A stretch of DNA of 34,675 bases from assembly GCA_009927045.1 (NCBI GenBank), contig RFNT01000222.1, positions 1 through 34,675 of the forward strand. Reading direction: 5' to 3'. This document shows, one piece after another, positions 1-23,845 of the stretch. The notes below the pieces were generated by a model. The model did not search any database. It saw nothing but the letters and a program-made list of their open reading frames with translations, and was not told where the DNA came from. Source of the DNA: a bacterium. Lineage in GTDB: Bacteria; Bdellovibrionota; FAC87; UBA2466. Made by a program: the position numbers and the translations under genes. Positions within the stretch are counted from its first letter, which is position 1. Each line of letters opens with the position of its first letter.

Positions 1-3000
1 CAATCCAGGGCCGTGCTTGTGGGCAAGTTCTTTCGCTGCCACAATAAATTGCGAAATTACCGATGGTTGAAGAGCCCGAGGCGCCGTAAATATTGGTATC
101 TAAAGCGGGCGAAGCCAAATCGACAGTGACAGCCAAAGTGGCAGATTGAGAGAAAACTGAAAGTGCGCCACCCGTCGCGCCTACTCTCACACGGTACTTA
201 TCACCATGATCCAAACTGAAAAACGGTGTGTTGACAGAGTACGATGAGCTAGTAGCGCCTTCAATATCCACAAAACTACCAATGCCACCTTCTTGCTTTT
301 GCCATTGATAAAAGAGAGTCGCATTCTGGGTGACACTCGCGCCTACGGTGAATGTGGCTGCCCCTTGATGGGAAACAGCAGTAACGGAAGTGGGCTCAGT
401 GTCGATGGAAATCACGGCAACGGGTCCTACATAGGAACCATCCACATAGTAATCGCCGTTGACGGCTCCAGTTCCTGGTTGGCCATTCACGTAGTAGTTA
501 GAATTGCACAGTCCGGTGCCATAGCTATCAATGCCAGATACGAGCTGGCCGGAGGAGTAGCAGTTATAGAGTGTTCCGTAGTTGGGGATTTGCGAAGAAG
601 GCGGCGAAAACGGCCCCGTGTAAACAGCCGCCCCTTTGACTATTCGCAAGTCATCCATGTGCCCTGCAAAGTAGTGGCTGCCGGCATGAGAACCGATATG
701 AACGGTGTTGCCGAACGAATAACTCTGGGAACTAGTGCCCGAGGCAACTAAGGCGCCATCCAAAAAGACTCTGACAGTGCTGTTTTCTCTGCTGACTGCT
801 ACGTGATACCAAGTGTTGGCACTCACACTCACAGCCCCATCCACATCCCAAGCTACGCTTCTTCGCGCAATCCCCAACCGAGTTCCGTTGGAGTGAAAAC
901 CAAAACAGAGTCCATTGTAATCGCTCGAACAGGCAACTAGCTGATGATCCGAAGGTGAATTGAGGCTCGTTAAATAAATCCAGCTTTCCAACGTGAAGTC
1001 GCCCGTACCGAAATTAAACGGTGTGCCTCCGCTGAGTCTCAGATCAGAATTGGAAGTTCCGTCGAAGTAGGCACTGGCACCCCCAAATTGGCTTTTATTG
1101 GTTCTGAGGCGAGCATTTCCATAGGCGGTGACCGTTTTCGGGTTTTGAGAAACATCTATGATACTGGTGGAATGATCCGCTCCATTGAAATTAAGTAACA
1201 GCGCCGTGGTATTGTTGGTGTGATCGGCAATCAATCCATTCGCTGGAGCTCCGGACCAGTAAAATACATTCGAGGCGTTTAACCCATTCACGTTGAGGCT
1301 GAGCGAAGCAGTTCCTGTACCTACCGCATTTGAAGCCGTGATCGTGTGATTCGATGTCGCCCCTCCATCAGTGGGAGTTCCAGTGATCACACAGGTGGTT
1401 GTGTTCAATGACAGGCCTGCGGGAAGCGCCGGAGACACCGAACATGAGTCGATGGTCCCTGCTGAAAGTGTCACGGTGATCGGTGAAATCGAAGTACCCG
1501 CTGTGAGTGTGCGACTTGAAGGACTGAAACTGATTTCAGGTGGCATCGCTTGTAAACTATTCGGGAAAGCCGCTGTGGGAACGGTGTAGGTATCGCCGGT
1601 GTAACGAGCTTTACTGGTTAAACGAATATCGTCCATCGCAGCTGGGAAGCTATTATTGAGATAGCCCCAGTCATTCCAGCTTCCAAAGGTAATGGTGCTT
1701 CCCAAAGTGAAGGATCCAGAAGGTACTCCCGTGGTGTCGATATTTTCGGAATAATTGATGCTGATGGTGTGACTGGCTCCCAATTTCTGACCGTCCAAGA
1801 AAAGCGAAATAGAATCTCCCTCTCGGACTAAAGCAATGTGGTGCCACTCAGATGAGAGAGAACCTCCCGGGAGTGAGCGATTAAAAGAATTCGAAATATA
1901 AAAATAGCCTTCATAGTCGTAGTATTCATAATTAAAGCTAACACTCAGTGAGCCACTGCTCACTCCCAGGCTCAGATATCGATAATAATCCTCTCCCCAG
2001 TGCATGAAAGTTCCGCTACTGGACAGGGCAGAATCAGGCTTCACCCAAAACTCAGCCGTGAATTGAGGAGGTAACGAAGAGGGGTGATTGGAGACTATCG
2101 CTGCACCATTGTAAGTGTAATCGGCCGGAGCAAGACGCAAGCCCTGACTTCCAAATTTAGCTGCCTCTTCGGAAATGAATGCGTTATTTTCCCCAGTGCT
2201 TTGTAAACTGGCTGTCCTCGGAGACGGAGAAGCATCTGTCAGGTCCCCATCTAAGTGGAGTAACAACGTCACATCGTTATAATCCGGATCGCCACCAGAG
2301 GGCGCATTGGGATTCGGTACAGTCAGAAGTGCGGCTTCGGAAGTCGCAGTGACGTTTGAATTACTCGCTGCCACTAGAACCACACGGTATTGAGTGTTGT
2401 TATCGGTAGCGTAAGTAAGACCTGTCAGCGAAAGCGCATTTTGCCCTACAACGCTTGTTCCGACATCCGCCCAGGTAGATCCATTGCTGCTTTTTTGCCA
2501 CTGGTAGGAAATAGAATCGTTGAAAACAGTCGAGGCTAGCACTCCAAATGAAGCTTCTCCATTGCTCGCAGTTTGAGCAGTGGGCTCTGCCGTGATCTGT
2601 ATTTGATCGGTCAGTGTCAGTACGGCAGCATCGCTCGTAACAGGTGTCGCGCCATCTGTTCCAAAAACGATGGCTCGGAAGAATTTTCCGTTATCCGAAA
2701 TAGTTAAATTACTTTTCGTATAACTACTGGCAATAGCACCATCAATGCTGGTGAAGTTGACGCCATCGGTACTTTCTTCCCACTGGTATGAAGACAGGCT
2801 CCCTCCATTGGAAATCGAGGCGCTGACAGAGAAAGTTGCAGTGGTCACGGTGGTAGTGACTGGTTGTGGGTGAGAGGAAATGGAGATGGCTGGAGGATCA
2901 ACTCCGAGTTGTGCAGAACTGCTCGTGACTGCCGTGGCCTGAGGAGCACTTACAACCACTTGGTAGAGGTCGCCATCATCACTTAAGAAAGTCAGACCAC

Positions 3001-4471
3001 TCAAAGTCAATGTGGCACTATCCGTTCCTACATTTTGCCAGGAGGCCCCAGCATCATCACTGCGTTGCCATTGGTAGGACATAGAAAGGCCGGCTGTGTT
3101 TGAAGCCGTGACGGAGAAGCTAGCCCCGCCATTGGAAGCATTTTGATTTTGGGGAGGCACTGTGATGCTGATCACCGGAACTACAGAAACGGTAACGGTG
3201 TTTGAAGTCACCGAAGTTGCGCCCGTCGCGCTCACGACTACTCGAAATTTCCACCCATGTACAGCGTCAGTAAGGCTCAGGGTCCCCACGTATTCATTGT
3301 TTCCGTTCAGAGCAGCTGTAGCAGTGCCTCCGTGGGATGTGGACCACGTAGTGCCCCCATCCGTGCTTTTTTCCCAAGAATAAGTGGGTGTAGCACCCGT
3401 AGTGACTGAAGCTATGACAGAAAGTGAAGCGTTACGGGTCGAGGTGCTGACCTCTGCTGGTTGCTGATCGATAACGATTAAAGTGCCGACACTTAAAGTA
3501 GCCGCATTACTTGTGACGGCAGGAGCTCCATTCGAACCTGAGACCACTACTCGGTACTGGTAGCCATCCGCATTATTTGCATTCACTGAAAGGGTCGTTG
3601 CAGTTTTCCCAGGGAGGTTAGAGAAAGTGGCCCCACTATCGGTGCTTCGCTGCCACTGATAAGAGAGTGTAGCTCCGGCTGAAATATTGGCCGTCACACT
3701 GAAGGTCACTGAGCCCCCAGTTACGGACTGGCTCTCTGGGTGTGCAGTAATGGTGATGGCAGGAACTACACTTAAAGTAGCTGCCGCGGAAGTGACCGAA
3801 GTGGCACCGCCGGTGGCTGCTACAACCACTCGATATTGGTAGCCGTTTGCTGCTGTTGTGAAGCTAAAGAATGAAAGCGTACTTTCCACTTCTCCATTGA
3901 TATTGGTGAAAGTTGTTCCACTGTCTGTGCTGCGTTGCCATTGGTAGGAAAGGGTTTCGCCCCCAGTGACTGAAGCTTGCACAGAGAAAGTTGCTGAGTC
4001 ACCCGAGCTCGTTACACTTTGGGGAGGGGTTTGAATGCTGATGACTGGGGCTTGCACAGTGAGTGTAACGACATTGGAGGGCATCAGAGTTGCACCACCA
4101 GTGGCGCTTATAACTACTCGGTATTTATCACCATGATCGGCAGAGAAAGTGAGTCCAGACAAACTCAGAGTTGCGCTGTTGCTGCCAACCACTGTCCACG
4201 CATTTCCACTTTCCGAGCTTTCTTGTTTCTGCCACTCGTAAGAAAGGGTTGCACCTGCAGAAACTGAAGCAGCCACTTGAAAAGAAGCAGTGCCAGCGCT
4301 GGCTGTTTGGTCCGTTGGTTGAGCGGAAATGGTGATGGCCGGAGTGACTGAAACAGTAACAGGGGTGCTCGTAACAGGAGTCGCTCCGCCATTCGCTGAC
4401 AGGATCGCTCGATATTCTGAGTTATGATCTTGATAAGTGAGTTCTGAAAGAACCAGTGTGGCAGAGTTCGC
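1..4471 (-). CDS. Giant Ig-like/LamG lipoprotein, C-terminal part (out of frame with its N-terminal part; runs off left edge)
   Basis: This is the continuation of the same gene after the frameshift. I checked the frame as open from about 4471 down to 2640 by eye for Ig pattern and codon by codon from 2640 to 1, with no stop. It starts in mid-domain (ANSATLVLSEL matches the strand expected after DIPG) and holds about seven more Ig-like domains down to about 2290. Then come a LamG/concanavalin-like domain (about 2285-1610; LLLHLDG, FTAEFWV, WHHIALVR, SLFLDGQ), a putative-Ig (He_PIG-like) domain (about 1550-1300; PALPAGLSL, GTPT) and a second LamG domain (about 1225-590; ALLLNFNG, FTLESWIY, WYHVAVSR). 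A short Cys/Gly/Tyr-rich linker and one more Ig domain precede the left edge. LamG pairs commonly bind glycans or matrix proteins. There is no start codon of its own, so alone it would not be expressed. Confidence 0.8.
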
Positions 4472-7400
4472 CCGGGAATATCCAAAAAGCTGGTCTCGCC
4501 ACTGAGTTTTTTCTGCCATTGATAAGAAAGAGTAGCCCCTAAATTCACTGATCCTGCAACAGTGAATTCAGCAAAGCCGTAGCCGGCAAGTGTTCTTCCT
4601 CCGTTATCCCCATTGAGTTGAGCAGTTTGAGAAGTGGGTTGAGAAGAGATTTCAATCAGGGGAACGAGTGTGAGTGTAGCAGTATTACTTGTGACCGGTA
4701 GAGCACCATCGGGCCCTTCCACAAGCACTCGGTATTGGTTGCCATTAAAAGAAAGGGTCAAGTTGGAGAGGGAAAGTGTAGTGCCAGTTTCCCCAGAAAG
4801 ATTCGTAAAGCCTGTACCGGAGTTGACTTGCCATTGGTAAGTGAGCATCCCAGCTCGAGTGCTTGTCGCTGCAATTGAAAATTCAGCAGTTTCATCGGAA
4901 GTGGAGAGACTCTGCGGTTGTTGTGAGATTGAGATTTCAGGTGCAGGAACCGTGAGAACGGCTATTTCACTGGATCGGGTAGTGCCTGTTCCACCTATGG
5001 CGCTGAGGATAACGCGGTATTTTTCGCCGTTATTCCCGAGATGAGTTAACGAAGTGACCAAAAGACCAGCTGTGTTGCTCCCAACCTGTGACCATGTATT
5101 CCCATGCTCGGTGCTAGCCTGCCGTTCCCATTGATAGCTCAGGGAAGTCCCAAAATTCACAGAAGCAGCGACGGAAAATAAGGCATCCCCATTGACTGCA
5201 GTAGTGGCACTGGGTTGAGAAGAGATTGTAATCACCGGGGCGATTGAAAGAAGAGCTGAAGTGCTATAAACATCCGATGCTCCATCAGAACTCATCACTT
5301 TAGCTCTGAACAACTTTCCGTGGTCCGCAATTGTAAGACCCGTCAATTGGAGAGTGCTCGAAGTTTCACCTGTCAAATCGGAGAAACCAGCCCCTGAGCT
5401 CACTTGCCATTGAAACGTGGGTAAAGATCCATCGGAAACAGTCGCTGAAACACTGAAAGACGCAGTTTCATCCGTACTGGTCACGTTCTCGGGTTGGGCC
5501 ACCACAGTAATCACAGGTGCTTCTACGGAAAGCGTAACGACATTGCTGGTCACTGAACTTCCGAACCCACTTCGGATCACAACGCGGTACTGTTTCCCAT
5601 GATCATACGGGAAGGTGAGATTCCTCAGATTTAAGGTCTGACCAGTCTCGTCCGCCAAGGACCAATAACCCGAGTTGACCTCCTTTTCCCACTCATAAAA
5701 AAGTGAATCACCGAAGTTGACTGAGGCACTCACCGAGAAAGTAGCCGCTCCAGCGATAGCAGTCTGGTTACTTGGCTGGGTGTTGATAGTAATCACCGGC
5801 AGAACCGAAAGCAGCGCAAGACCGCTATCCACTGGCGCCGCGCCATCAAGGCTGCTCACCCTAACTCTAAAATATTTACCGTGATCCGAAAGCGTGAGGC
5901 CCGTGAGATAGAGCGTACTCGCGGTTTGTCCAGGAATGTCCATAAACCCTGAACCAGTATCCACTTGCCACTGGTAAGAGGGTGTGGAGCCAGACGAAAT
6001 GGAAGCTGAAACTGTGAAGAGTGCTGTTTCATCGGTACTGATCACCGCTTGAGGATCTGAAAGAATGGTAGCGACTGGGTCCCCAATGGAAAGAACGGCA
6101 ACTCGACTGATCACGGGATCTGCAATTTCAGAAGTCACTACTACTCGGTATTTATCTCCCTCATCCGCCACGCCACTTAGGTTATTCACAGTGAGTGAAG
6201 GACCACCATTCCCTATGTTAGTCCATGTGTCTCCGCTCTCCGTGCTTTCTTGCTTTTGCCATTGGTAAGAAAGGCTTGCGCCAAAGTTGACGGTTGCAGC
6301 TGCATTGAAAAGAGCAGTTCCACCTGGATTAGCTATTAGGTCAGCAGGTTCCGAGGTGAAAGCAATGACGGGCTGGATGGAAAGAGTGGCCTCTTCGCTA
6401 ACGATAAAATTTGAATCGGGGCCAATGACTCGGACTCTAAAAGTTTTGCCCTGATCCGAAATTCCTAGACCCGAAAGCACGAGCGTGTCCGAAGTTTGTC
6501 CGGTGAAATTATTGTAGCCTCCTCCAGCATTTACTTCCCACTGATAACGGGGAGTGGATCCATCCGAAAGCGAAGCTGACACAGAAAACAGTGCAGTTTC
6601 ATCGCTACTCACCATGCTTTGGGGGTGGGATTGAATAGAAAGTGTAGGAGCGTCCACGGAGAGCGTCACAGTTTCACTGGTCATGGAACTAGCGCCTCCC
6701 GTGCTACTGACGACAACTCGATATTTATCTCCCCGGTCATTGGGGTAAGTCAGTCCCGTGAGCGAAAGAGTCGAGCTATTAGTCCCAACGTTGGTCCATG
6801 TGTCTCCGCTCTGCGTGCTTTCTTGTTTTTGCCACTGATAGGAAAGAGTTGCCCCGAAGTTGACTGAAGCTCCGACGGTGAAAGTAGCCACCCCCGCCGT
6901 CGCCGTCTGGTCCGCAGGCGGATTGGTTATCGAAACAACTGGGAGAATGTACAGGGTGGCCGGGTCGCTATGAACTGAAACTGCACCTCCGGGTCCGCTC
7001 ACGATCACTCTAAACTGTTTTCCATTATCGGTGAGCGTGAGTCCCGTGAGCGAAAGCGTATTCGAGGTTACACCAACAAGATTGGTAAACCCCGATCCAG
7101 TATCCACTTGCCACTGGTAAGTAGGAGTGGCTCCGTTGGACACTGTTGCTCCCACAGAAAATGTAGTAGTTGGAGTGCTGATCACGATACTTTGGGGATG
7201 GGTTTGGATGCTGATGGTGGGAGGAGGAGCATCAGTCACAGACAGAGTGGCTAGAGAACTCACAACTGAAGTGGCACCCGGGGATGTGGCAATCACTCGG
7301 TATTTATCCCCGTTGTCGTCAGCGATGGATAGAGCACTTAAAGTAAGGGAAGGGCCCGTAGCATTGGGAATATCTGTCCAGGTGTCACCACTTTCGGTGC

Positions 7401-7810
7401 TTTCCTGCTTTTGCCACTGCAAAGAAACCGAGGCCCCAAACGTCGCCGAAGCGGTCACCGAGAAAGAAGCAGTGCCGTTTTCTACCACGGCGATATTTCC
7501 AGGAGCTGAAACAGAGAGCGTGGGAATTAGACTCAGCTCCGCAGCTTCGCTCGTGACGGGCTCGGCACCATGGGCCCCGAACACTCGGACACGATAAAAA
7601 GTTCCGTGATCGGTTAAAGCAAGATTATCCAGAACCAGAGTCGCATCAGTTCCTGAAATATCCTCGAAGGGTCCGTTCACGCCACTCACACTTTTTTGCC
7701 ACTGATAGGATAGTTCGGTGCTTGGAGTGCTTGTGGCCAAAGCAGCAAATGTGGCATCACTGGTGTGGGAGATGATCGCTTGAGGCTGCAAGTTGATTTG
7801 AATGACCGGT
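2290..7810 (-). repeat. Tandem array of Ig-domain coding repeats with a two-domain period
   Basis: About 19 degenerate repeats of 270-300 bp, all in the coding sense of the giant lipoprotein. Similarity is highest between every second repeat. For example 6221-6292 and 6794-6865 (offset 573 bp, 191 codons) are nearly identical, and a more diverged relative lies near 7378. The array most likely grew by duplication of a two-domain block. Confidence 0.75.
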
Positions 7811-8223
7811 TTTCTATACGCTGCGATCGAAGCTGTTCTTCCCACTCGGGTATCTGCGGAATCGGCTATCGAAACTGCCGTGACGATCGCTTTCAAATAA
7901 AAGATGGGTGCGGCCACGGAAGTAATTTGACTGATCTCAAGTTCCTGAGCATTCATTCCAGTCAGATTGGTAAACGTTGAATTGTCTGTGCTGATTTGCC
8001 ACTGGTAAGTAAAATTGAAAGCTTGAGCATCTAATTCCGGCGCGGCCGCGAGCAAGGCGGGATGTGCGCCATCGGTATCGAGAGTCGAAGTCAGGTTGAC
8101 GTTAAAAGAAACAACTTTGGAGGATTCGATGGGGGCTGGTTCTACCGATACGGGGACAATAATGCGTGGCTTGCACCCAGTTATTGAAATTAAAAAAGCT
8201 GTGAAGAAAACAAAAAACTTCAC
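4165..8223 (-). CDS. Giant Ig-like repeat surface lipoprotein, N-terminal part (ends at a frameshift)
   Basis: Likely a cell-surface adhesin or binding protein anchored by lipid. The N-terminus is a lipoprotein signal with lipobox I-T-G-C about 17 residues in. I chose GTG at 8223 because GGGAGAG lies just upstream with good spacing; an in-frame TTG at 8238 sits upstream of that site. After the signal come about twelve Ig-like domains of 90-100 residues, each with the YQWQ tryptophan strand and a D-x-G-x-x-Y/F-R-V strand. From the second full domain on, two kinds alternate: one with a QKQESTESGDTW-type insert and one with QVDTGSGF. The frame breaks inside a domain at CCCGGG (4471-4476). The last ~100 codons (to the stop at 4165) have none of the Ig pattern, and the Ig pattern resumes in the next frame. 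Family-level function is inferred; no ligand can be named. Confidence 0.85.
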   Translation of the reverse strand: MKFFVFFTAFLISITGCKPRIIVPVSVEPAPIESSKVVSFNVNLTSTLDTDGAHPALLAAAPELDAQAFNFTYQWQISTDNSTFTNLTGMNAQELEISQITSVAAPIFYLKAIVTAVSIADSADTRVGRTASIAAYRKPVIQINLQPQAIISHTSDATFAALATSTPSTELSYQWQKSVSGVNGPFEDISGTDATLVLDNLALTDHGTFYRVRVFGAHGAEPVTSEAAELSLIPTLSVSAPGNIAVVENGTASFSVTASATFGASVSLQWQKQESTESGDTWTDIPNATGPSLTLSALSIADDNGDKYRVIATSPGATSVVSSLATLSVTDAPPPTISIQTHPQSIVISTPTTTFSVGATVSNGATPTYQWQVDTGSGFTNLVGVTSNTLSLTGLTLTDNGKQFRVIVSGPGGAVSVHSDPATLYILPVVSITNPPADQTATAGVATFTVGASVNFGATLSYQWQKQESTQSGDTWTNVGTNSSTLSLTGLTYPNDRGDKYRVVVSSTGGASSMTSETVTLSVDAPTLSIQSHPQSMVSSDETALFSVSASLSDGSTPRYQWEVNAGGGYNNFTGQTSDTLVLSGLGISDQGKTFRVRVIGPDSNFIVSEEATLSIQPVIAFTSEPADLIANPGGTALFNAAATVNFGASLSYQWQKQESTESGDTWTNIGNGGPSLTVNNLSGVADEGDKYRVVVTSEIADPVISRVAVLSIGDPVATILSDPQAVISTDETALFTVSASISSGSTPSYQWQVDTGSGFMDIPGQTASTLYLTGLTLSDHGKYFRVRVSSLDGAAPVDSGLALLSVLPVITINTQPSNQTAIAGAATFSVSASVNFGDSLFYEWEKEVNSGYWSLADETGQTLNLRNLTFPYDHGKQYRVVIRSGFGSSVTSNVVTLSVEAPVITVVAQPENVTSTDETASFSVSATVSDGSLPTFQWQVSSGAGFSDLTGETSSTLQLTGLTIADHGKLFRAKVMSSDGASDVYSTSALLSIAPVITISSQPSATTAVNGDALFSVAASVNFGTSLSYQWERQASTEHGNTWSQVGSNTAGLLVTSLTHLGNNGEKYRVILSAIGGTGTTRSSEIAVLTVPAPEISISQQPQSLSTSDETAEFSIAATSTRAGMLTYQWQVNSGTGFTNLSGETGTTLSLSNLTLSFNGNQYRVLVEGPDGALPVTSNTATLTLVPLIEISSQPTSQTAQLNGDNGGRTLAGYGFAEFTVAGSVNLGATLSYQWQKKLSGETSFLDIPGRTLPHWFFQNSLIKIITQNIERSCQRMAERLLLRAPLLLFQSLRPSPFPLNQRTKQPALALLLFKWLLQFLQVQPFLTSGRNKKARKVEMRGQWLAATAQL

Positions 8224-8273
8224 GGAATTCTCTCCCAACGTTCAGCTCGCTACCATGCTTGCTTGACACCTTT

Positions 8274-8279: not shown

Positions 8280-8391
8280 GGGTCCGGCTGAGCTTGAAAT
8301 ATGAAGCAATTGTGAAAAGAATTTTGTGAAAAAAAAACAAAAACCCAGTGTCAACTACTTAGACGATTTCAGCGGGGTGAAAAAAATGGCA

Positions 8392-9006
8392 CTAAGCTTG
8401 CTTGCTGCCTTTGCCTATTGACATGTTAACGGGGATTTTTTTTGCGCAGAGAGGACATTCAGCAGCATCCCAAGCTTCCAATTGAATGTGAAAGAGGGAC
8501 TGAAGCCGAGGAACATTTCCTAAAAGTTCAGCAGTGAGAGCACCTCGATTGCAGAGCGCAGAAACTCCAACGACCTCACATGGAATAGTTCGGGCGACTT
8601 CAATCACTTTTCTAACAGATCCCCCGGTGGTGAGCACGTCTTCTACGACGAGCACTTTCTGATTGCGAATGAGTGCATCGTAACCGCGCTTGATCACAAA
8701 ACTCTTCTCTGGCGTTTGTTCTGCATATACAGAAAGAATTTCTTTTTTCTGGTGCCGAGATAGCGCTGCAGCTATCCCATGTCCCAAAATCATACCGCCA
8801 ATGGCCGGGGCCAGGACGGCATCTATTTCTGTTGTGTAAAAGGGTTCTGCCATTGCTTGGCAAATGCGTGCTGTGAGTTCTGTGTGAGGATAAATGGCAT
8901 CTTTATTCACATAGCTCTTGCCATGCTTCCCCGACGTGTACACGACGTGGCTTTCGGTGATGAGAGCTCCAATCGATTCCAAAAAATTTAAATTTAAATC
9001 AGCCAT
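8392..9006 (-). CDS. pyrE: Orotate phosphoribosyltransferase
   Basis: Transfers phosphoribose from PRPP to orotate to make OMP, the fifth step of UMP synthesis, in the cytoplasm. The PRPP-binding motif VLVVEDVLTTGGS sits at residues 118-130, with conserved KHGKSYVNKD near the N-terminus. Near the C-terminus is a CPLC pair (about 184-187) in a DAAECPLCAKK context, as I recall from longer PyrE-like proteins. Start ATG 9006 gives 204 residues, the usual size; a longer reading from 9057 would run into pyrF. It overlaps the end of pyrF by 8 bp, so the two are translationally coupled. Last gene of the bcp-pyrF-pyrE operon. Confidence 0.93.
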   Translation of the reverse strand: MADLNLNFLESIGALITESHVVYTSGKHGKSYVNKDAIYPHTELTARICQAMAEPFYTTEIDAVLAPAIGGMILGHGIAAALSRHQKKEILSVYAEQTPEKSFVIKRGYDALIRNQKVLVVEDVLTTGGSVRKVIEVARTIPCEVVGVSALCNRGALTAELLGNVPRLQSLFHIQLEAWDAAECPLCAKKIPVNMSIGKGSKQA

Positions 9007-13209: not shown

Positions 13210-15176
<1,967 letters not shown>

Positions 15177-17639: not shown

Positions 17640-18104
17640 ATGGGTGAGCAAACCTTTAAACCGGGTGATTGGGTCAAAGTAAAAAAGTTAGGACGAGAAG
17701 GCCAAGTGCTCGAAATCACTGCTAAGGGGTCTTATCGAGTGGCTTTAGGGGGGCTCACGATGGAAGTGAAGCCCCTGGAAGTGGTAGCTGCAGCTCCCGA
17801 GCGGTGGAAAAAAGAAAGCGAGCGCCTCAAAGCCAAAAAGTTGCCAGTGGAAGGCAAAATCACTCAAGAAAAAATGCCCGAGATTTTAGATTTGCATGGG
17901 CTGCGAGTGGAAGAAGCATTGCCTCGAGTCGCACACTTTTTAGATCAAGCGATTCTTCAAGACAAAGATGAAGCGAGAATCCTCCACGGACTGGGAACGG
18001 GAAGGTTGCTCGAAGCGGTCCATCAGTTTTTGAAAAAAACACCTACAGTGAAGCATTTCGAACTGGATCCCAACAATCCAGGAGTTACTCGAGTTTATTT
18101 TTAA
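17640..18104 (+). CDS. Smr-domain protein with KOW-like N-terminal segment (MutS2 C-terminus-like)
   Basis: Residues 80-154 form a Smr domain: ILDLHGLRVEEAL at 82-94, HGLGTG at 116-121, and terminal DPNNPGVTRVYF. Smr domains act as endonucleases or nucleic-acid binding modules, for instance on ribosome-bound mRNA or branched DNA. Residues 6-50 (GDWVKVKKLGREGQVLEI...VKPLEVV) resemble the KOW-like segment before the Smr domain in MutS2, so this looks like a stand-alone MutS2 C-terminus without the ATPase. I chose ATG 17640 because AGAAGG lies 8 bases upstream. It is convergent with the DUF493 gene, sharing the TTAA at 18101-18104. Confidence 0.85.
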   Translation: MGEQTFKPGDWVKVKKLGREGQVLEITAKGSYRVALGGLTMEVKPLEVVAAAPERWKKESERLKAKKLPVEGKITQEKMPEILDLHGLRVEEALPRVAHFLDQAILQDKDEARILHGLGTGRLLEAVHQFLKKTPTVKHFELDPNNPGVTRVYF

Positions 18105-18439
18105 AGCACTAGGATAGCGCCTTGAATTTTTACGAGCTCTTCGTAAATGCGAACCACTTTGTCTGGAGATTCGGCACGGACTTCCAAAGTAACAGCGCTG
18201 TGTTTGCCGCTATCAGTTTCGCGCACAGTGTATTTGGGCTGACATTCTGGACCCACAGCGCGAAGGGCCGCTTCCACAACGCGCTCAGGAAAACTGTTTT
18301 GATGTTCCCCAATCACTTTAAAGGTATAGCTCCCGGGAAACGTATGCGTGGCTCGAAGTAATTCTAAGGACGGAAATTTATGAGGTGTGGTCATGCGTGG
18401 TCTTGGACTTAATTCCTGAATGTGAAAAACGTCAAACAT
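18101..18439 (-). CDS. DUF493 (YbeD-like) family protein
   Basis: Small ACT-like fold protein of unknown function. The recognisable core is TFPGSYTFKVIGEH, then SGKHSAVTLEVRAESPDKVVRIYEELVKI, ending GAILVL, close to the YbeD/DUF493 pattern. The start is unclear: ATG 18439 has AGGA almost touching it, while ATG 18394 gives a 97-residue protein nearer the family size but without a ribosome site. The stop is shared with the convergent Smr gene (TTAA). Confidence 0.82.
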   Translation of the reverse strand: MFDVFHIQELSPRPRMTTPHKFPSLELLRATHTFPGSYTFKVIGEHQNSFPERVVEAALRAVGPECQPKYTVRETDSGKHSAVTLEVRAESPDKVVRIYEELVKIQGAILVL

Positions 18440-18598
18440 TCCTACAAGTGCCGCATGTTACGACAGGGGGCGAAAGTGTCCAAGAAAACGACAAAAAACA
18501 CATTAAAAATCAATAAGTTAAGTGTATTCCCGGGGTCTACGTCAAAAACTTCGGCAGCTGTATAAAAATAACTGCTTGAAATCACAGGCAAAAAAAAT

Positions 18599-18613
18599 TG
18601 GCACCAGCGCTGC
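18599..18613 (+). promoter_or_regulatory. Candidate sigma-54 (RpoN) -24/-12 promoter
   Basis: TGGCAC at 18599-18604 and CTGC at 18610-18613 put GG and GC exactly 10 bp apart, matching TGGCAC-N5-TTGC with one mismatch. Transcription would start near 18624, about 70 bases before the lipoprotein gene at 18697. No conventional -35/-10 pair is clear in this 257-base gap. The remaining upstream sequence (18440-18598) is AT-rich and could hold enhancer sites, but I see no obvious palindrome. Confidence 0.55.
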
Positions 18614-18651
18614 ATCAAGAGTTACCTGTCAGATTCCGATAACAACACTGG

Positions 18652-18685
18652 TGGGGTGATCTCTTTCACTTTTAAAAACACCCCA
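18652..18685 (+). promoter_or_regulatory. Stem-loop in the leader, ending at the ribosome binding site
   Basis: TGGGGTG (18652-18658) is the perfect reverse complement of CACCCCA (18679-18685), with a 20-base AT-rich loop. The 3' arm ends on the first base of the AGGGGG ribosome site (18685-18690), six bases before the ATG at 18697. This could affect translation of the lipoprotein. The stem is short, so the call is tentative. Confidence 0.4.
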
Positions 18686-18696
18686 GGGGGACGTGT

Positions 18697-20949
18697 ATGC
18701 GCTTAGGAAAATTCATTTTCATCATTACCGCTTTGACTACGATGACTTCGTGTATGAAGAAGTCGAGGATTGGTAGTCGAGACACTCAATCCACTATTAC
18801 GGATCCATCCACGCCCACAGCGGAATGTCCGAACGGAGTAGTCCTCACTGCGGAGCCGCTCTCTGTAACGGGCGGAGTTCCCGTTTTTTATACGTATTCA
18901 CCGGTCACTTTCAAAATTGTCGCAAGCGGATGTAAGTACGGCTACGTCCTGAACGGGACGACTAGTAGAAATTTTTCTCGAACCATTTACACCAATAAAA
19001 CGTACACAACGGCCCAGACTGAAGATATCGAAACCTTTTCAGTGAGCATCCGGGATGCTGCTGGCAATGCGGTTCGGGAATTTGAAGTGGAATCCGATCC
19101 CTTTAGAATCGAAACGATGGTGCAACCCCAATGTGATCTTGAGCCTGCTCAAGCTTTTGTTGATGGCTCAGGCATTGTCCGTGTCAAATTCACTCCGAGT
19201 GAATCCGGTAAATTGCTCAGTATTGCACCCCAAGCGAATCAAACAGTGGCCATCAGCAGCACTTCTCCTGGCCCACTTCCTTCGGCTGGCCGAGACGTAG
19301 TGGCGAATAGAAGCTACGATTACATTCTAACCACTAACGGGGGTAGTGGATTGATTGATTTTAAATACCGCAAGAATTTAGCAGCTGGGGTCACGGCGCC
19401 GTCCAACCTGGATCAAATCACAGGGACCTGTTCCGTGGAAGTGATTCCTTCTTTATGCAATGCGGGCGTGCAAGCAGACTTTTTAGGGAACGGGGGCTCA
19501 CAAGATTTACGTATTGTGTGTGATACGCGAACGATTCAAGTCACTCCCGTATCCGGTGGGGCAGTCAATGTGTTTGCCACTTTATCGAATATCAGCAATA
19601 TCCGGCAGCTGATTCCTGGAAACATCAATGGCGATAGTAAAGCGGATCTCTTAATCTTTAAAAAGAACGTTGCCAATGATGAAGCCACTTTCCACTTGGG
19701 CATCACGCAGTCCTCGAACACATTCAATTCAAAAATTAACGACGCTTGTGCCACCAAGTGGAAAATAGACGGGAAAAGCTTGCCAGAGCAATTCCACTTT
19801 GAACCTAAAGGCACCGGACCTGCAAAAATTTGGGCCCTGATTGGTGCTGATCAGGCCTCTCTGGTCCGCTATGAAGCGACTATTCAGGCGAATAGTGATG
19901 GTTCGTGTAACTTGAGTTCACCCACTGCCTCAAGTGCTAGCGTCTCCATTAGCGCGAGTAAGAGTACGATTTCGCATGGTGAGAGCGTAGTGATCACTTG
20001 GGGTGCCGTGAACGTGGCGGGAGCTACTTGTAGTTTAAAGAAAAAGCTCAGCTCGGAATTAGATACGAGTTACCAATCAGTTTCTGGCGAAGAAAATAAA
20101 AATGCAGGTGGTGCTCAAGTGGTATCTCACCCAGTCGATAGCGGTGCCATTACGGCCAGCACAGACTATCAGGCAAGCTGTGAGGGCGGGGGCATCTCTA
20201 AAAAGGAGAAAGTCACCATTCAGGTAGACGATGCGAGCTTCCCACTACAAGTGCGCGAAAGCACCTTGAATGGAAGTCCTTCTATATCCTTTTTCAATCC
20301 TGAAATTGCAGCGGATAAGAACATAGGGCATTTTTCTGGGAAAGATCTCTTTCTCACTTGGAATCGACCTGCCGGAGCTTCGAGTTGTCGATTACATCGC
20401 CTACCTGTTGGTGGGACAGAGACGAGTGAAACAATCTCTCGAGAGAGCAATGGGCCTCGTACAGTGAAAGTAGACCGAACCACTACATTTTCAGTTCGCT
20501 GTAGTGGAGTGGACGATGTTTCAAAAATGATTGTGATGGGCGGCGCTCCAGACATCAAGCCTGGTACGGCAGTTCAAGCAAGTTGGGCCAATGTGGCTCC
20601 CAATGCGGCTCAAGCGGCTAAGCCTCTTATCATGAGTGCCAGTGGACGAGGCGCCAAAATAAAAGTGATTTCTGTTTCCATTGGAAATCCGGCTGGTTCA
20701 GGAAGCTTTTCAGTCAACGACGGGTGCAATAATCAGGATTTGAACCCGGTTGGAAGTAGTGAATGCACAGTGAGCGTTACTTACACTTCAGGAGCGCAGG
20801 GCACCAGCGCTTATGGTTGGCTAAAAGTTAAGTATAAGCGCTACAATGATAGAGGCGAACTCTTACCGGAGGAATACGAGAACTTACTCCACTATGTCAG
20901 TGGCACTGTTCAAAGGCCTGCAGGTGGAGGCGGTAGAGGCGGCAAGTAA
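18697..20949 (+). CDS. Large lipoprotein with Ig-like and choice-of-anchor-like domains
   Basis: Surface or periplasmic lipoprotein of 750 residues. The signal peptide ends in M-T-S-C with Cys19 as lipid anchor. Visible parts are an FG-GAP/dockerin-like Asp loop GNINGDSKADLLIF near residue 308, then two Ig-like domains of the type with ITWGAVNVAGATC and LTWNRPAGASSC tryptophan strands (about 405-500 and 520-610). Near 667 is a segment GSGSFSVNDGC...SSECTVSVTY resembling choice-of-anchor D domains. The tail is Gly/Arg-rich. No enzymatic motif is seen. A strong AGGGGG ribosome site supports ATG 18697. It is followed 18 bases later by a membrane-protein gene, so the two probably share the sigma-54-like promoter. 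Confidence 0.82.
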   Translation: MRLGKFIFIITALTTMTSCMKKSRIGSRDTQSTITDPSTPTAECPNGVVLTAEPLSVTGGVPVFYTYSPVTFKIVASGCKYGYVLNGTTSRNFSRTIYTNKTYTTAQTEDIETFSVSIRDAAGNAVREFEVESDPFRIETMVQPQCDLEPAQAFVDGSGIVRVKFTPSESGKLLSIAPQANQTVAISSTSPGPLPSAGRDVVANRSYDYILTTNGGSGLIDFKYRKNLAAGVTAPSNLDQITGTCSVEVIPSLCNAGVQADFLGNGGSQDLRIVCDTRTIQVTPVSGGAVNVFATLSNISNIRQLIPGNINGDSKADLLIFKKNVANDEATFHLGITQSSNTFNSKINDACATKWKIDGKSLPEQFHFEPKGTGPAKIWALIGADQASLVRYEATIQANSDGSCNLSSPTASSASVSISASKSTISHGESVVITWGAVNVAGATCSLKKKLSSELDTSYQSVSGEENKNAGGAQVVSHPVDSGAITASTDYQASCEGGGISKKEKVTIQVDDASFPLQVRESTLNGSPSISFFNPEIAADKNIGHFSGKDLFLTWNRPAGASSCRLHRLPVGGTETSETISRESNGPRTVKVDRTTTFSVRCSGVDDVSKMIVMGGAPDIKPGTAVQASWANVAPNAAQAAKPLIMSASGRGAKIKVISVSIGNPAGSGSFSVNDGCNNQDLNPVGSSECTVSVTYTSGAQGTSAYGWLKVKYKRYNDRGELLPEEYENLLHYVSGTVQRPAGGGGRGGK

Positions 20950-20967
20950 ATCCTGGAGACAAAGAAC

Positions 20968-21552
20968 ATGTACTATGTGTTGAGTGGTTTGTTTCTCATT
21001 CTCTGGGCGGTTGTTAACCTGTTCGTGGATATCCAAGAATATGGTTGGGCCGAAGGGAACTACTGGTGGTTTTGTAATTTAGCGCTCTTTGGAATGGGCA
21101 TTGGGCTCATCATAAAAAGCCGCGGAGTTCTCACCGGCTTTCTCTCAATTGCTTCCTTCACTCAAACATTCTGGGTCATCGATAACTTGTACCGCCAAGT
21201 GAAAGGGGTCTCCTTATTTGGACTCACGGACTTCATGTACCGACCGGGCTACCCCCTTTCTAAGTTCGTATTATCCCACTATCACTATTTCACGCTCCTC
21301 ATTGGGCTTTATGCGCTTTGTTTTTTACCGCGGGTACGAAACCATACGTTACTTCTCAGTGCTATTTTCAACCCCTTCATTTTTGCGGTTTCCTATTTTG
21401 CATTTGGGGCAGATAAGAACGTCAATTGCATTCACAGCTCCTGTTTGCCCGGTCTCATTCCTGGTGAAGGGCCTGTCTTTGCAGTCCTCTTCTGGGCCGG
21501 TGTTTTTTTATTCATATGGCTATTGCTTACGGCATGGACCGCTTCTTTTTAA
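20968..21552 (+). CDS. Six-helix integral membrane protein of unknown function
   Basis: I do not recognise the family. 194 residues with about six hydrophobic segments: 3-20, 34-50, 54-76, 104-121, 127-146 and 166-190. A loop with two cysteines (NCIHSSCLPG, about 153-162) lies before the last helix, and several Trp and Tyr residues are at the helix ends. GGAGA 12 bases before ATG 20968 is a usable ribosome site. It directly follows the 750-residue lipoprotein and is likely co-expressed with it. Transport, sensing or anchoring are all possible. Confidence 0.8.
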   Translation: MYYVLSGLFLILWAVVNLFVDIQEYGWAEGNYWWFCNLALFGMGIGLIIKSRGVLTGFLSIASFTQTFWVIDNLYRQVKGVSLFGLTDFMYRPGYPLSKFVLSHYHYFTLLIGLYALCFLPRVRNHTLLLSAIFNPFIFAVSYFAFGADKNVNCIHSSCLPGLIPGEGPVFAVLFWAGVFLFIWLLLTAWTASF

Positions 21553-21618
21553 ATCTCGATTTAAAAGTCCACCAACAAAGTTTGTGCACGCTAGTTTCGC
21601 TTAGGGCTCCTGGCGGCT

Positions 21619-21972
21619 TTGGGGTTTTCCGTTCACGATGTGCAGTACCGGATGGCAATGCCCAAGTTTGCCTGTCTTCAGAAACGACCGGACGGGATTT
21701 CCACAGGATGTAAAAATACGAAGCCTTACATGAGTGACGAGTTCTTGATTAATTATTTTATTAAAAACGATGGTATTTATGACCAAGTCTGCCAAGTGGT
21801 GCTGGATGTTGATGGAAAAGAGATCGTACCGCAAGAGCCTGGCAACTTGATGATTGGCGCTGCTTACACGGAGTCGCATCCGCTCCCCCTTCCAGATAAG
21901 GATATGACCGTGGCAGTAAAGTCGAAATGCACACGCATTCCGGGGCGTGAAGTCGCTTCGGAACGTCAGTAA
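21619..21972 (+). CDS. Small Cys-containing protein, start unclear, possibly exported or a remnant
   Basis: The open frame runs from just after a TAG at 21592 to the TAA at 21972, with no ATG until 21652. The codons just before and including TTG 21619 read RLGLLAALGFSVHDVQ, which looks like the hydrophobic core of a signal peptide without its start. Thus the 5' end may be frameshifted or damaged, or an unusual start is used. The mature part has Cys at FACLQK, TGCKN, QVCQVV and KSKCTR, and segments like SDEFLINYFIKNDG that look protein-like. No family recognised. It sits between the membrane protein and ftsH, same strand. Confidence 0.5.
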   Translation: MGFSVHDVQYRMAMPKFACLQKRPDGISTGCKNTKPYMSDEFLINYFIKNDGIYDQVCQVVLDVDGKEIVPQEPGNLMIGAAYTESHPLPLPDKDMTVAVKSKCTRIPGREVASERQ

Positions 21973-22015
21973 ATTTGATTTCCCTCCGTCTCGTAAAGAG
22001 CATATATTGGGGGCC

Positions 22016-23845
22016 ATGAACCCCAAAGCACGCTTCAATTTAGCCTATTTAATTTTTGCCTTCTTCCTCATCGTTTGTTTCACGAGGGGTGGACCAATAT
22101 ACTCAAGTGCGCATATCCCTTTCAGCGAATTTCAAACGCTCCTTGAGGGCAATAAAATTTCGGAAGTAGTGATCAATGACAACCAGATCATTGGGAAACT
22201 GAAAGACCCCCAAGGCTCTGAAAAAAAGCAATTTGCTACCAATCGAGTAGAGCCCGATATTGCGAAACTTCTGGATGCTCATGGAGTGAAGTACAGCCGC
22301 GTCATTCAGAATGGCTTTTTTAAAGATCTGCTTTCTTGGGTGGTTCCCGTTTTTGTGTTTTTTGGCCTCTGGCTACTTCTGATGCGTCGAATGGGGGGTG
22401 GGCGAGGCGGCATGGGCGGATTCATGTCTGTGGGGCAAAGCAAAGCCAAAATTTACGTGGAAAAAGATACCAAAGTGACTTTCAAAGACGTAGCGGGCGT
22501 AGAAGAAGCAAAAGAAGAACTTAAAGAGATTGTCGACTTTCTCAAAGACCCCAAAAGCTATGGTCGTTTGGGGGCTCGGGTTCCCAAAGGGATTTTATTA
22601 GTGGGGCCTCCTGGAACTGGAAAAACTCTCTTTGCGAAAGCAGTCGCCGGGGAAGCCGGCGTCCCCTTTTTCTCTATCAGTGGCTCCGAGTTTGTGGAGA
22701 TGTTTGTTGGCGTGGGCGCTGCGCGGGTGAGGGATTTGTTCGAGCAGGCCCGAAAGAAAGCCCCCTGTATCATTTTCATTGATGAACTGGATGCCCTCGG
22801 GAGAGCTCGTTCTGTGGGGGGGTTCTCTGCTGGTAATGACGAAAAAGAACAAACGCTGAACCAGCTCTTGGTGGAACTGGATGGATTTGATTCTTCTACC
22901 GGAATTATTGTGCTCTCGGCTACCAACCGGCCAGAAATTTTGGATCCGGCGCTCCTCAGAGCCGGCCGGTTTGATCGGCAAATTCTCGTCGACCGTCCAG
23001 ATAAAAAAGGGCGTGTGGAAATCTTGAAAGTCCACTCAGGCAAAGTGAAATTAGATCCTGGCACCAGTCTCGAACAGGTTGCGGCGCTCACCCCGGGTTT
23101 TACCGGAGCTGATTTAGCAAACTTAGTGAACGAAGCCGCACTCGTTGCCACTCGTCGTAAAGCTGAACAGATCAATTTGAGTGATTTCACAGCAGCCATT
23201 GAACGAATGGTGGCAGGGCTTGAAAAGAAAAACCGCCTCTTGAATCCGGAAGAGCGCAAAGTGGTGGCTTATCATGAAATGGGCCATGCTTTAGTCGCTG
23301 GGTGCTTGCCCAGTGCAGACCCGGTTCATAAAGTTTCCATCATTCCCAGAGGCATGGGTGCTCTCGGATACACATTACAGCGACCTGCGGAAGACCGGTA
23401 TTTGATGACTCTGGAAGAACTCGGCAACAAAATGGCCGTGCTTTTGGGAGGAAGAGCTGCAGAAAAACTCATTTTCAATCACTTTTCCACGGGAGCTGCT
23501 GATGATATTGCCCGTGCGACGGATATCGCAAGGAGCATGGCCACTCGGTATGGCATGGAGTCTTCTTTGGGCAGCGTGAGTTACGATAGCGAAACGGGGG
23601 GCTATTTGGGAGGAGCTGGGGCTGTAAATCCATTTCAGTACCGGCGTTACAGTGAAGAAACTGCCCGAGAAATCGATCTTTCAGTAAAGGAGCGAGTCAA
23701 TCAAGCGCTCCTAAGAGCAGTGACTCTGATTGACGCTAATCGAGGTATTTTAGAGCAGGGTGCCCAGCAACTTTTAGAAAAAGAAACCCTCGTGGAAGAA
23801 GATTTGAAAACGCTATTTGCTACGTTAAAAAGGGAGAGCACATGA
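22016..23845 (+). CDS. ftsH: ATP-dependent zinc metalloprotease FtsH
   Basis: Membrane-anchored AAA+ protease that extracts and degrades misfolded membrane proteins and unstable regulators. Two transmembrane segments (about 8-24 and 104-123) flank a periplasmic domain. Then come Walker A GPPGTGKT (197-204), Walker B IIFIDE (252-257), the second region of homology ATNRPEILDPALLRAGRFDR, and the zinc site HEMGH (His420, Glu421, His424). The zinc motif has Met where most FtsH have Ala. Start ATG 22016 has GGGGG closely upstream and gives 609 residues; an in-frame start at 21947 would overlap the preceding ORF and is less likely. The stop overlaps the next gene (ATGA). Confidence 0.96.
   Translation: MNPKARFNLAYLIFAFFLIVCFTRGGPIYSSAHIPFSEFQTLLEGNKISEVVINDNQIIGKLKDPQGSEKKQFATNRVEPDIAKLLDAHGVKYSRVIQNGFFKDLLSWVVPVFVFFGLWLLLMRRMGGGRGGMGGFMSVGQSKAKIYVEKDTKVTFKDVAGVEEAKEELKEIVDFLKDPKSYGRLGARVPKGILLVGPPGTGKTLFAKAVAGEAGVPFFSISGSEFVEMFVGVGAARVRDLFEQARKKAPCIIFIDELDALGRARSVGGFSAGNDEKEQTLNQLLVELDGFDSSTGIIVLSATNRPEILDPALLRAGRFDRQILVDRPDKKGRVEILKVHSGKVKLDPGTSLEQVAALTPGFTGADLANLVNEAALVATRRKAEQINLSDFTAAIERMVAGLEKKNRLLNPEERKVVAYHEMGHALVAGCLPSADPVHKVSIIPRGMGALGYTLQRPAEDRYLMTLEELGNKMAVLLGGRAAEKLIFNHFSTGAADDIARATDIARSMATRYGMESSLGSVSYDSETGGYLGGAGAVNPFQYRRYSEETAREIDLSVKERVNQALLRAVTLIDANRGILEQGAQQLLEKETLVEEDLKTLFATLKREST

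Follow-up and report, generated by a model that had tools for sequence, protein, structure and literature searches.

A candidate sigma-54-dependent operon for an exported lipoprotein and a membrane protein in an uncultured, probably Bdellovibrio-like lineage

From which promoter is an envelope locus flanked by ftsH and a divergent DUF493 gene transcribed, and how many genes does it contain? The locus lies on contig RFNT01000222.1, all 34,675 nucleotides of which constitute the window analyzed here (contig C87 of genome G000, a 2.39 Mb assembly of 263 contigs with 95.42% completeness from an uncultured, probably Bdellovibrio-like lineage). The original prediction, made from the sequence alone, placed a sigma-54-type promoter in front of three genes for a lipoprotein, a six-helix membrane protein, and a small Cys-containing protein, which might form a regulated surface assembly unit. 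The locus is interpreted here, with a probability of roughly 0.6, as an envelope operon of two genes under sigma-54 control, which encode a predicted exported lipoprotein and a membrane protein that may be its partner (Table 1). Relatives are referred to by genome (G) and locus (L) handles, and exported, signal-like, or lipoprotein-like N-termini were assigned by eye throughout.

The promoter element and its upstream box

The predicted near-consensus -24/-12 element was confirmed: TGGCACCAGCGCTGCA, located 5' of the lipoprotein gene, fits 10 of the 12 positions of the sigma-54 consensus, with a predicted transcription start at approximately 18624-18625. When the 260 bases preceding the lipoprotein gene were shuffled 5000 times with dinucleotide content preserved, an equal or better GG-N10-GC site appeared anywhere in 30 shuffles and at -145 to -90 in only 5. 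The window contains two exact matches to TGGCACN5YTGCW (at 18599 and 8387), where 0.095 are expected from a first-order model. The second match, TGGCACTAAGCTTGCT (8387-8402, plus strand, 11/12 positions), overlaps the 3' end of an opposite-strand phosphoribosyltransferase gene, has no plus-strand gene behind it, and is probably due to chance.

Recurrence of the element was judged on the orthologous lipoprotein genes of G002 and G006, since the G003 copy starts at a contig edge. The G002 gene is preceded by TGGCATTCATATTGCT at -108 (10/12; equalled in 51 of 5000 shuffles anywhere and in 12 at -145 to -90), and the G006 gene by the weak site TGGCCTCGGCACTGCA at -104 (8/12). In addition, a TGTATTC box, a candidate activator-binding site, precedes the window element, and G006 carries TGTATAC at the identical distance of 76 bases before the -24 TGG. 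Given the position of the element, its presence 5' of two orthologous genes, and the constant spacing of the box, it is taken as real and well placed, and a sigma-54 promoter is its best reading. The cognate machinery is also encoded: the check for rpoN suggested with the original prediction found the gene in the same genome (PF04552, 213.6 bits), each of the 14 family genomes has RpoN (in two as partial matches), and 17 activator-domain (PF00158) matches occur in G000, 11 of them below E 1e-50. No activator gene was found among the Pfam-scanned parts of the window.

Table 1. Features of the locus, in window coordinates.
Feature	Position	Strand	Basis or remark
TGTATTC box, candidate activator-binding site	18523-18529	+	76 bases before the -24 TGG
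-24/-12 sigma-54-type promoter element	18599-18614	+	GG 18600-18601, 10-base spacer, GC 18612-18613
Predicted exported lipoprotein gene, 750 residues, Ig-like and FG-GAP-like parts	18697-20949	+	Domain matches of relatives; window copy weak only
Membrane protein gene, split into ORFs 20968-21552 and 21619-21972	20968-21972	+	Homologue profile match
Leader hairpin, unsupported as a feature	18652-18685	+	z +1.51; 190 of 200 shuffles as good
AGGGGGA, likely ribosome site	18685-18691	+	By eye
DUF493 gene, divergent upstream neighbor outside the operon	18101-18439	-	Pfam PF04359, E 6.9e-17
ftsH, next same-strand gene	22016-23845	+	Pfam domains; ATG 22016 by eye; also downstream in G006

Two genes and their possible partnership

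The predicted 750-residue open reading frame (ORF) was found as described, with a lipobox-like MTSC at residues 16-19, and LSAC in G006 (both by eye). The protein shares 33% identity with its G006 orthologue, and proteins encoded beside the membrane protein gene in G002 and G003 align to it at 20-21%. The window copy itself has no domain match below E 0.05 (the best in Pfam is a sub-threshold Ig-like match at E 0.051, and NCBIfam gave none), and the domain assignment comes from four relatives: FG-GAP in two (weak, best E 0.0035), ASH in one (E 3.4e-06), and choice-of-anchor D in one (E 6.2e-10). The predicted leader hairpin exists and abuts the AGGGGG of the ribosome site; as a riboregulator it was rejected, its folding being no better than that of shuffled sequences and no counterpart being seen in the G006 and G002 leaders.

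The predicted three-gene unit was revised to two genes. A homologue profile spans 20959-21942 through three internal stop codons (one TAG and two TAA), and seven full-length homologues are single ORFs of 335-342 residues, each of which includes the part represented by the small Cys-containing ORF. Because the homologues are single and the profile spans both pieces, the six-helix ORF and the small ORF are parts of one gene, of which the latter is the C-terminal end. According to our reading of the alignment, homology passes out of the frame that starts at 20968 between approximately 21490 and 21531 and is back in it from a point between approximately 21582 and 21613. Over 119 codons, the C-terminal piece is still 39.5% identical to its G006 counterpart; synonymous sites between the window and G006 are saturated, and dN/dS is therefore unusable. 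On the same contig, a giant exported Ig/PKD-repeat gene (1-8241, minus strand, >2,700 codons, running off the contig) changes frame once between approximately 4168 and 4567.

A model of the intact G006 orthologue (pLDDT 83.9) shows helices up to residue 230 followed by eight strands, and the helical part was also modeled alone (pLDDT 81.9). Foldseek returned no match at E <=0.001 for the whole model or the helical part, and a second structural comparison gave middling Z scores of 7.0 for the Ig-like part (79 residues, rmsd 3.0) and 5.7 for the helical part (100 residues, rmsd 3.2). The sequence had no match among solved structures at E 1, and no credible match to the family was found in Pfam or NCBIfam. 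The protein is predicted to have about seven helices and, at its C-terminus, an Ig-like domain rich in Cys. In the G006 orthologue, the invariant Cys154 and Cys159 lie in an inter-helix loop, and Cys237, Cys250, Cys277, and Cys323, all four of which are kept in the window piece, lie in or beside the Ig-like part; disulfides may form. Divergent paralogues that keep the NC...C loop are found in a single sister genus, where the genes around them are conserved (L109, 5626-6636; L110, 5260-6270; L111, 4082-5101; L112, 6291-7304; L113, 6317-7330).

Within the order, 11 of 15 genomes have a match to the membrane protein profile; in the phylum, 12 of 368 genomes do, 11 of these 12 belonging to one family. 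A search for conserved gene order, suggested for the three ORFs, recovered the order of two, as the lipoprotein gene is directly followed by the membrane protein gene in four genomes (G000, G006, G002, and G003). In the window, the intergenic gaps are 18 bases between these genes and 43 bases between the membrane protein gene and ftsH. The latter gene follows in G000 and G006, which belong to one genus, and its place is taken by another ORF in G003 and by an opposite-strand gene in G002. Neither protein was matched in G007 of the same genus, but its DUF493 gene (19860-20171) is close to the end of a contig of 20225 bases, so that absence of the operon is not shown. The G004 orthologue, which is cut by a contig end, is preceded by a dehydrogenase-like ORF (by eye), no lipoprotein gene precedes the membrane protein gene in G008 and G012, and the G009 and G011 contigs end too near it to show the upstream neighbor. 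A scan of the window against Rfam (gathering scores) and for tRNAs gave no match.

Based on these features, a possible course of expression can be proposed. An activator of the enhancer-binding type may bind the TGTATWC box approximately 100 bases before the start and, on sensing its signal, let RpoN-polymerase open the -12 region of the element, so that regulated transcription would begin near 18625. One transcript would then yield the lipoprotein, carrying Ig-like and FG-GAP-like parts and presumably placed in the envelope, followed by an inner-membrane protein, the Ig-like C-terminal domain of which would be periplasmic and could bind or position the lipoprotein. Read-through into ftsH may occur in the genus of G000 and G006, and co-transcription of ftsH with the operon is thus possible.

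Wider use of the promoter pattern and the box

In the whole genome, the exact pattern TGGCACN5YTGCW has 18 matches (11 forward and 7 reverse), where 6.6 are expected from the first-order window model, and the reversed control pattern has none against 2.1 expected. Eleven of the 18 (L022, L024, L025, L027, L028, L029, L030, L032, L034, L035, and L038, the ORF of L028 being doubtful) lie outside ORFs of >100 residues and 36-221 bases 5' of a same-strand ORF, a placement that is unlikely to be random because approximately 96% of the window between 4165 and 34494 is coding according to our gene list. L023 and L033 might also precede ORFs if the listed ORFs start too early, L031 has no ORF downstream, and L026, L036, L037, and L039 overlap coding regions without a new gene ahead of them. 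Signal- or lipoprotein-like N-termini are found in seven of the 11 downstream ORFs (L022, L025, L027, L029, L030, L034, and L035), and the products include FliL (L032), a subtilase (L022), a trypsin-like protease (L035), and a CBS-domain protein (L024).

The combined pattern TGTATWC-N46..76-TTGGC-N7-YTGC has 14 matches in eight of the 14 family genomes, compared with approximately 2.0 expected and none for the reversed control; three of these (the window, L127, and G006) were known when the pattern was designed, and 11 are independent. Nine precede or overlap the starts of exported-type ORFs (L117, L121, L122, L123, L124, L125, L128, L129, and L130), two (L118 and L119) lie within large ORFs, L120 and L126 are located some way 5' of other ORFs, and L127 has no ORF behind it. 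Pfam searches with eight of the downstream proteins gave little, namely a weak DUF4347 match (L117) and a metallopeptidase match (L125). A literature search on TGTATAC and enhancer-binding proteins returned no bacterial title among the matches listed, and one on Bdellovibrio and FG-GAP listed a paper on serine proteases; such title listings do not establish that the unit is undescribed.

The distances between box and promoter cluster at approximately 56, 66, and 77 bases, and helical phasing of the box is suggestive only, the test being exploratory with a period picked once the distances were known. R was 0.67 with all 14 matches, a value attained in 27 of 20000 random sets; it was 0.65 (81 of 20000) with the 12 non-coding matches and 0.62 (242 of 20000) with the 11 left after the G006 orthologue was also dropped. 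L118 and L119, inside large ORFs, are in phase as well, which weakens the test.

The ORF-less site L031 (1501-1665; contig C125 of G000, site 15062-15077; identical to L127) is a perfect match of the sigma-54 type, and a TGTATTC box stands 65 bases before it. Approximately 100 bases past the expected start there is a hairpin of 13 pairs followed by a T run (z -3.34, reached by 0 of 200 shuffles), which makes the locus a candidate for a small RNA dependent on sigma-54. This hairpin extends into the end of a convergent gene and may serve that gene instead; every Rfam match of the region fell far below gathering scores. A broader proposal, considered rather unlikely, is that one lineage-specific activator uses TGTATWC boxes helically phased (at approximately 56, 66, and 77 bases) to sigma-54 promoters and controls a few targets per genome across the family, comprising exported proteins, the lipoprotein operon reading into ftsH, and, in G000, an ORF-less transcript of approximately 130 bases with a strong terminator as a sigma-54-dependent small RNA.

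Alternative explanations and known systems

Several observations weigh against the sigma-54-dependent two-gene operon. The one-mismatch form of TGGCACN5YTGCW shows no enrichment, with 4 matches in the window where 2.9 are expected and as many in 31 of 100 shuffles, the G006 element is matched by 1095 of 5000 shuffles anywhere upstream and by 262 in position, and the TGTATAC boxes of G002 lie at -51 and -112 with none at -76. Furthermore, the window copy of the second gene is interrupted, and the membrane protein occurs without the lipoprotein in G004, G008, and G012, so that the partnership is not obligatory. The operon as a whole is a prediction from sequence, and its activator is postulated. 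It is distinctly unlikely that the -24/-12 match arose by chance and that transcription of the operon starts from an ordinary promoter or one of another kind: the 18 genomic matches against 6.6 expected leave room for chance, with four of them coding or facing no gene, and the better-fitting site at 8387 precedes no gene on its own strand, but the position of the element, its recurrence before two orthologues, and the fixed-distance box speak against such an origin. An ordinary promoter is also disfavored, as no sigma-70-like plus-strand site is listed between 18440 and 18697, and the four promoter-like sites in 18100-22300 do not exceed the 5.4 found in shuffles.

Both frame changes of the membrane protein gene are present in the assembled sequence and could be real, making it a pseudogene or the source of two separate pieces in the organism, which is considered somewhat unlikely. 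Retention of the four conserved Cys residues and of the identity to G006 argues against a pseudogene, and consensus sequence errors are a likely cause because the repeat gene at 1-8241 changes frame too. As for function, the membrane protein might be a distant relative of YwaF and the acyltransferase TMEM164 that modifies lipids or the lipoprotein, since its conserved WWFCN, LSHYHYF, and NxNC motifs are arranged, by eye, like LHLC, THG, and TNY of the TIGR02206 protein L093. This is very improbable: the TIGR02206 and TMEM164 models are absent from the matches of seven homologues (E limit 10, HMMER filters on), profile comparison gave probabilities of 0.1% and 0.7%, no clear match was obtained among solved structures, and in most of the divergent paralogues L109-L113 the Cys of WWFC and the His of LSHYHY are gone. 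With neither model nor profile support, the relationship was rejected. No TIGR02206 match was found in G000 or G006, and neither a plasmid search nor four genomes of the family of G040 yielded further TIGR02206 proteins.

If the preferred interpretation of a sigma-54-dependent operon is correct, it provides a concrete sigma-54 target set in this lineage, linked by a defined box to exported proteins, and it adds an undescribed family of membrane proteins, neighbor and possible partner of an exported lipoprotein. The corrected gene call, by which two apparent genes become one, is a further outcome. The predicted regulated envelope unit is retained on the strength of sequence and inference. Compared with known systems, the lipoprotein resembles exported FG-GAP and ASH/choice-of-anchor D proteins through its relatives, the window copy having no match below E 0.05. 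The membrane protein resembles YwaF, TIGR02206, and TMEM164 in its membrane helices and, by eye, in how its motifs are laid out, but carries an additional Ig-like C-terminal domain and lacks a sequence or profile match to them. Sigma-54 control of genes for the cell exterior appears as an established theme in the passages of Francke et al. 2011 (PMC3162934) considered here; the main text does not name Bdellovibrio, and the box and protein families are not in those passages. An RpoN-type promoter before an exported lipoprotein gene agrees with that theme, so the expectation of an undescribed system holds only in part, and what is new is the membrane protein family, which is without a credible Pfam or NCBIfam match, together with what may be a regulon of exported proteins defined by the box, to which a small RNA might belong.

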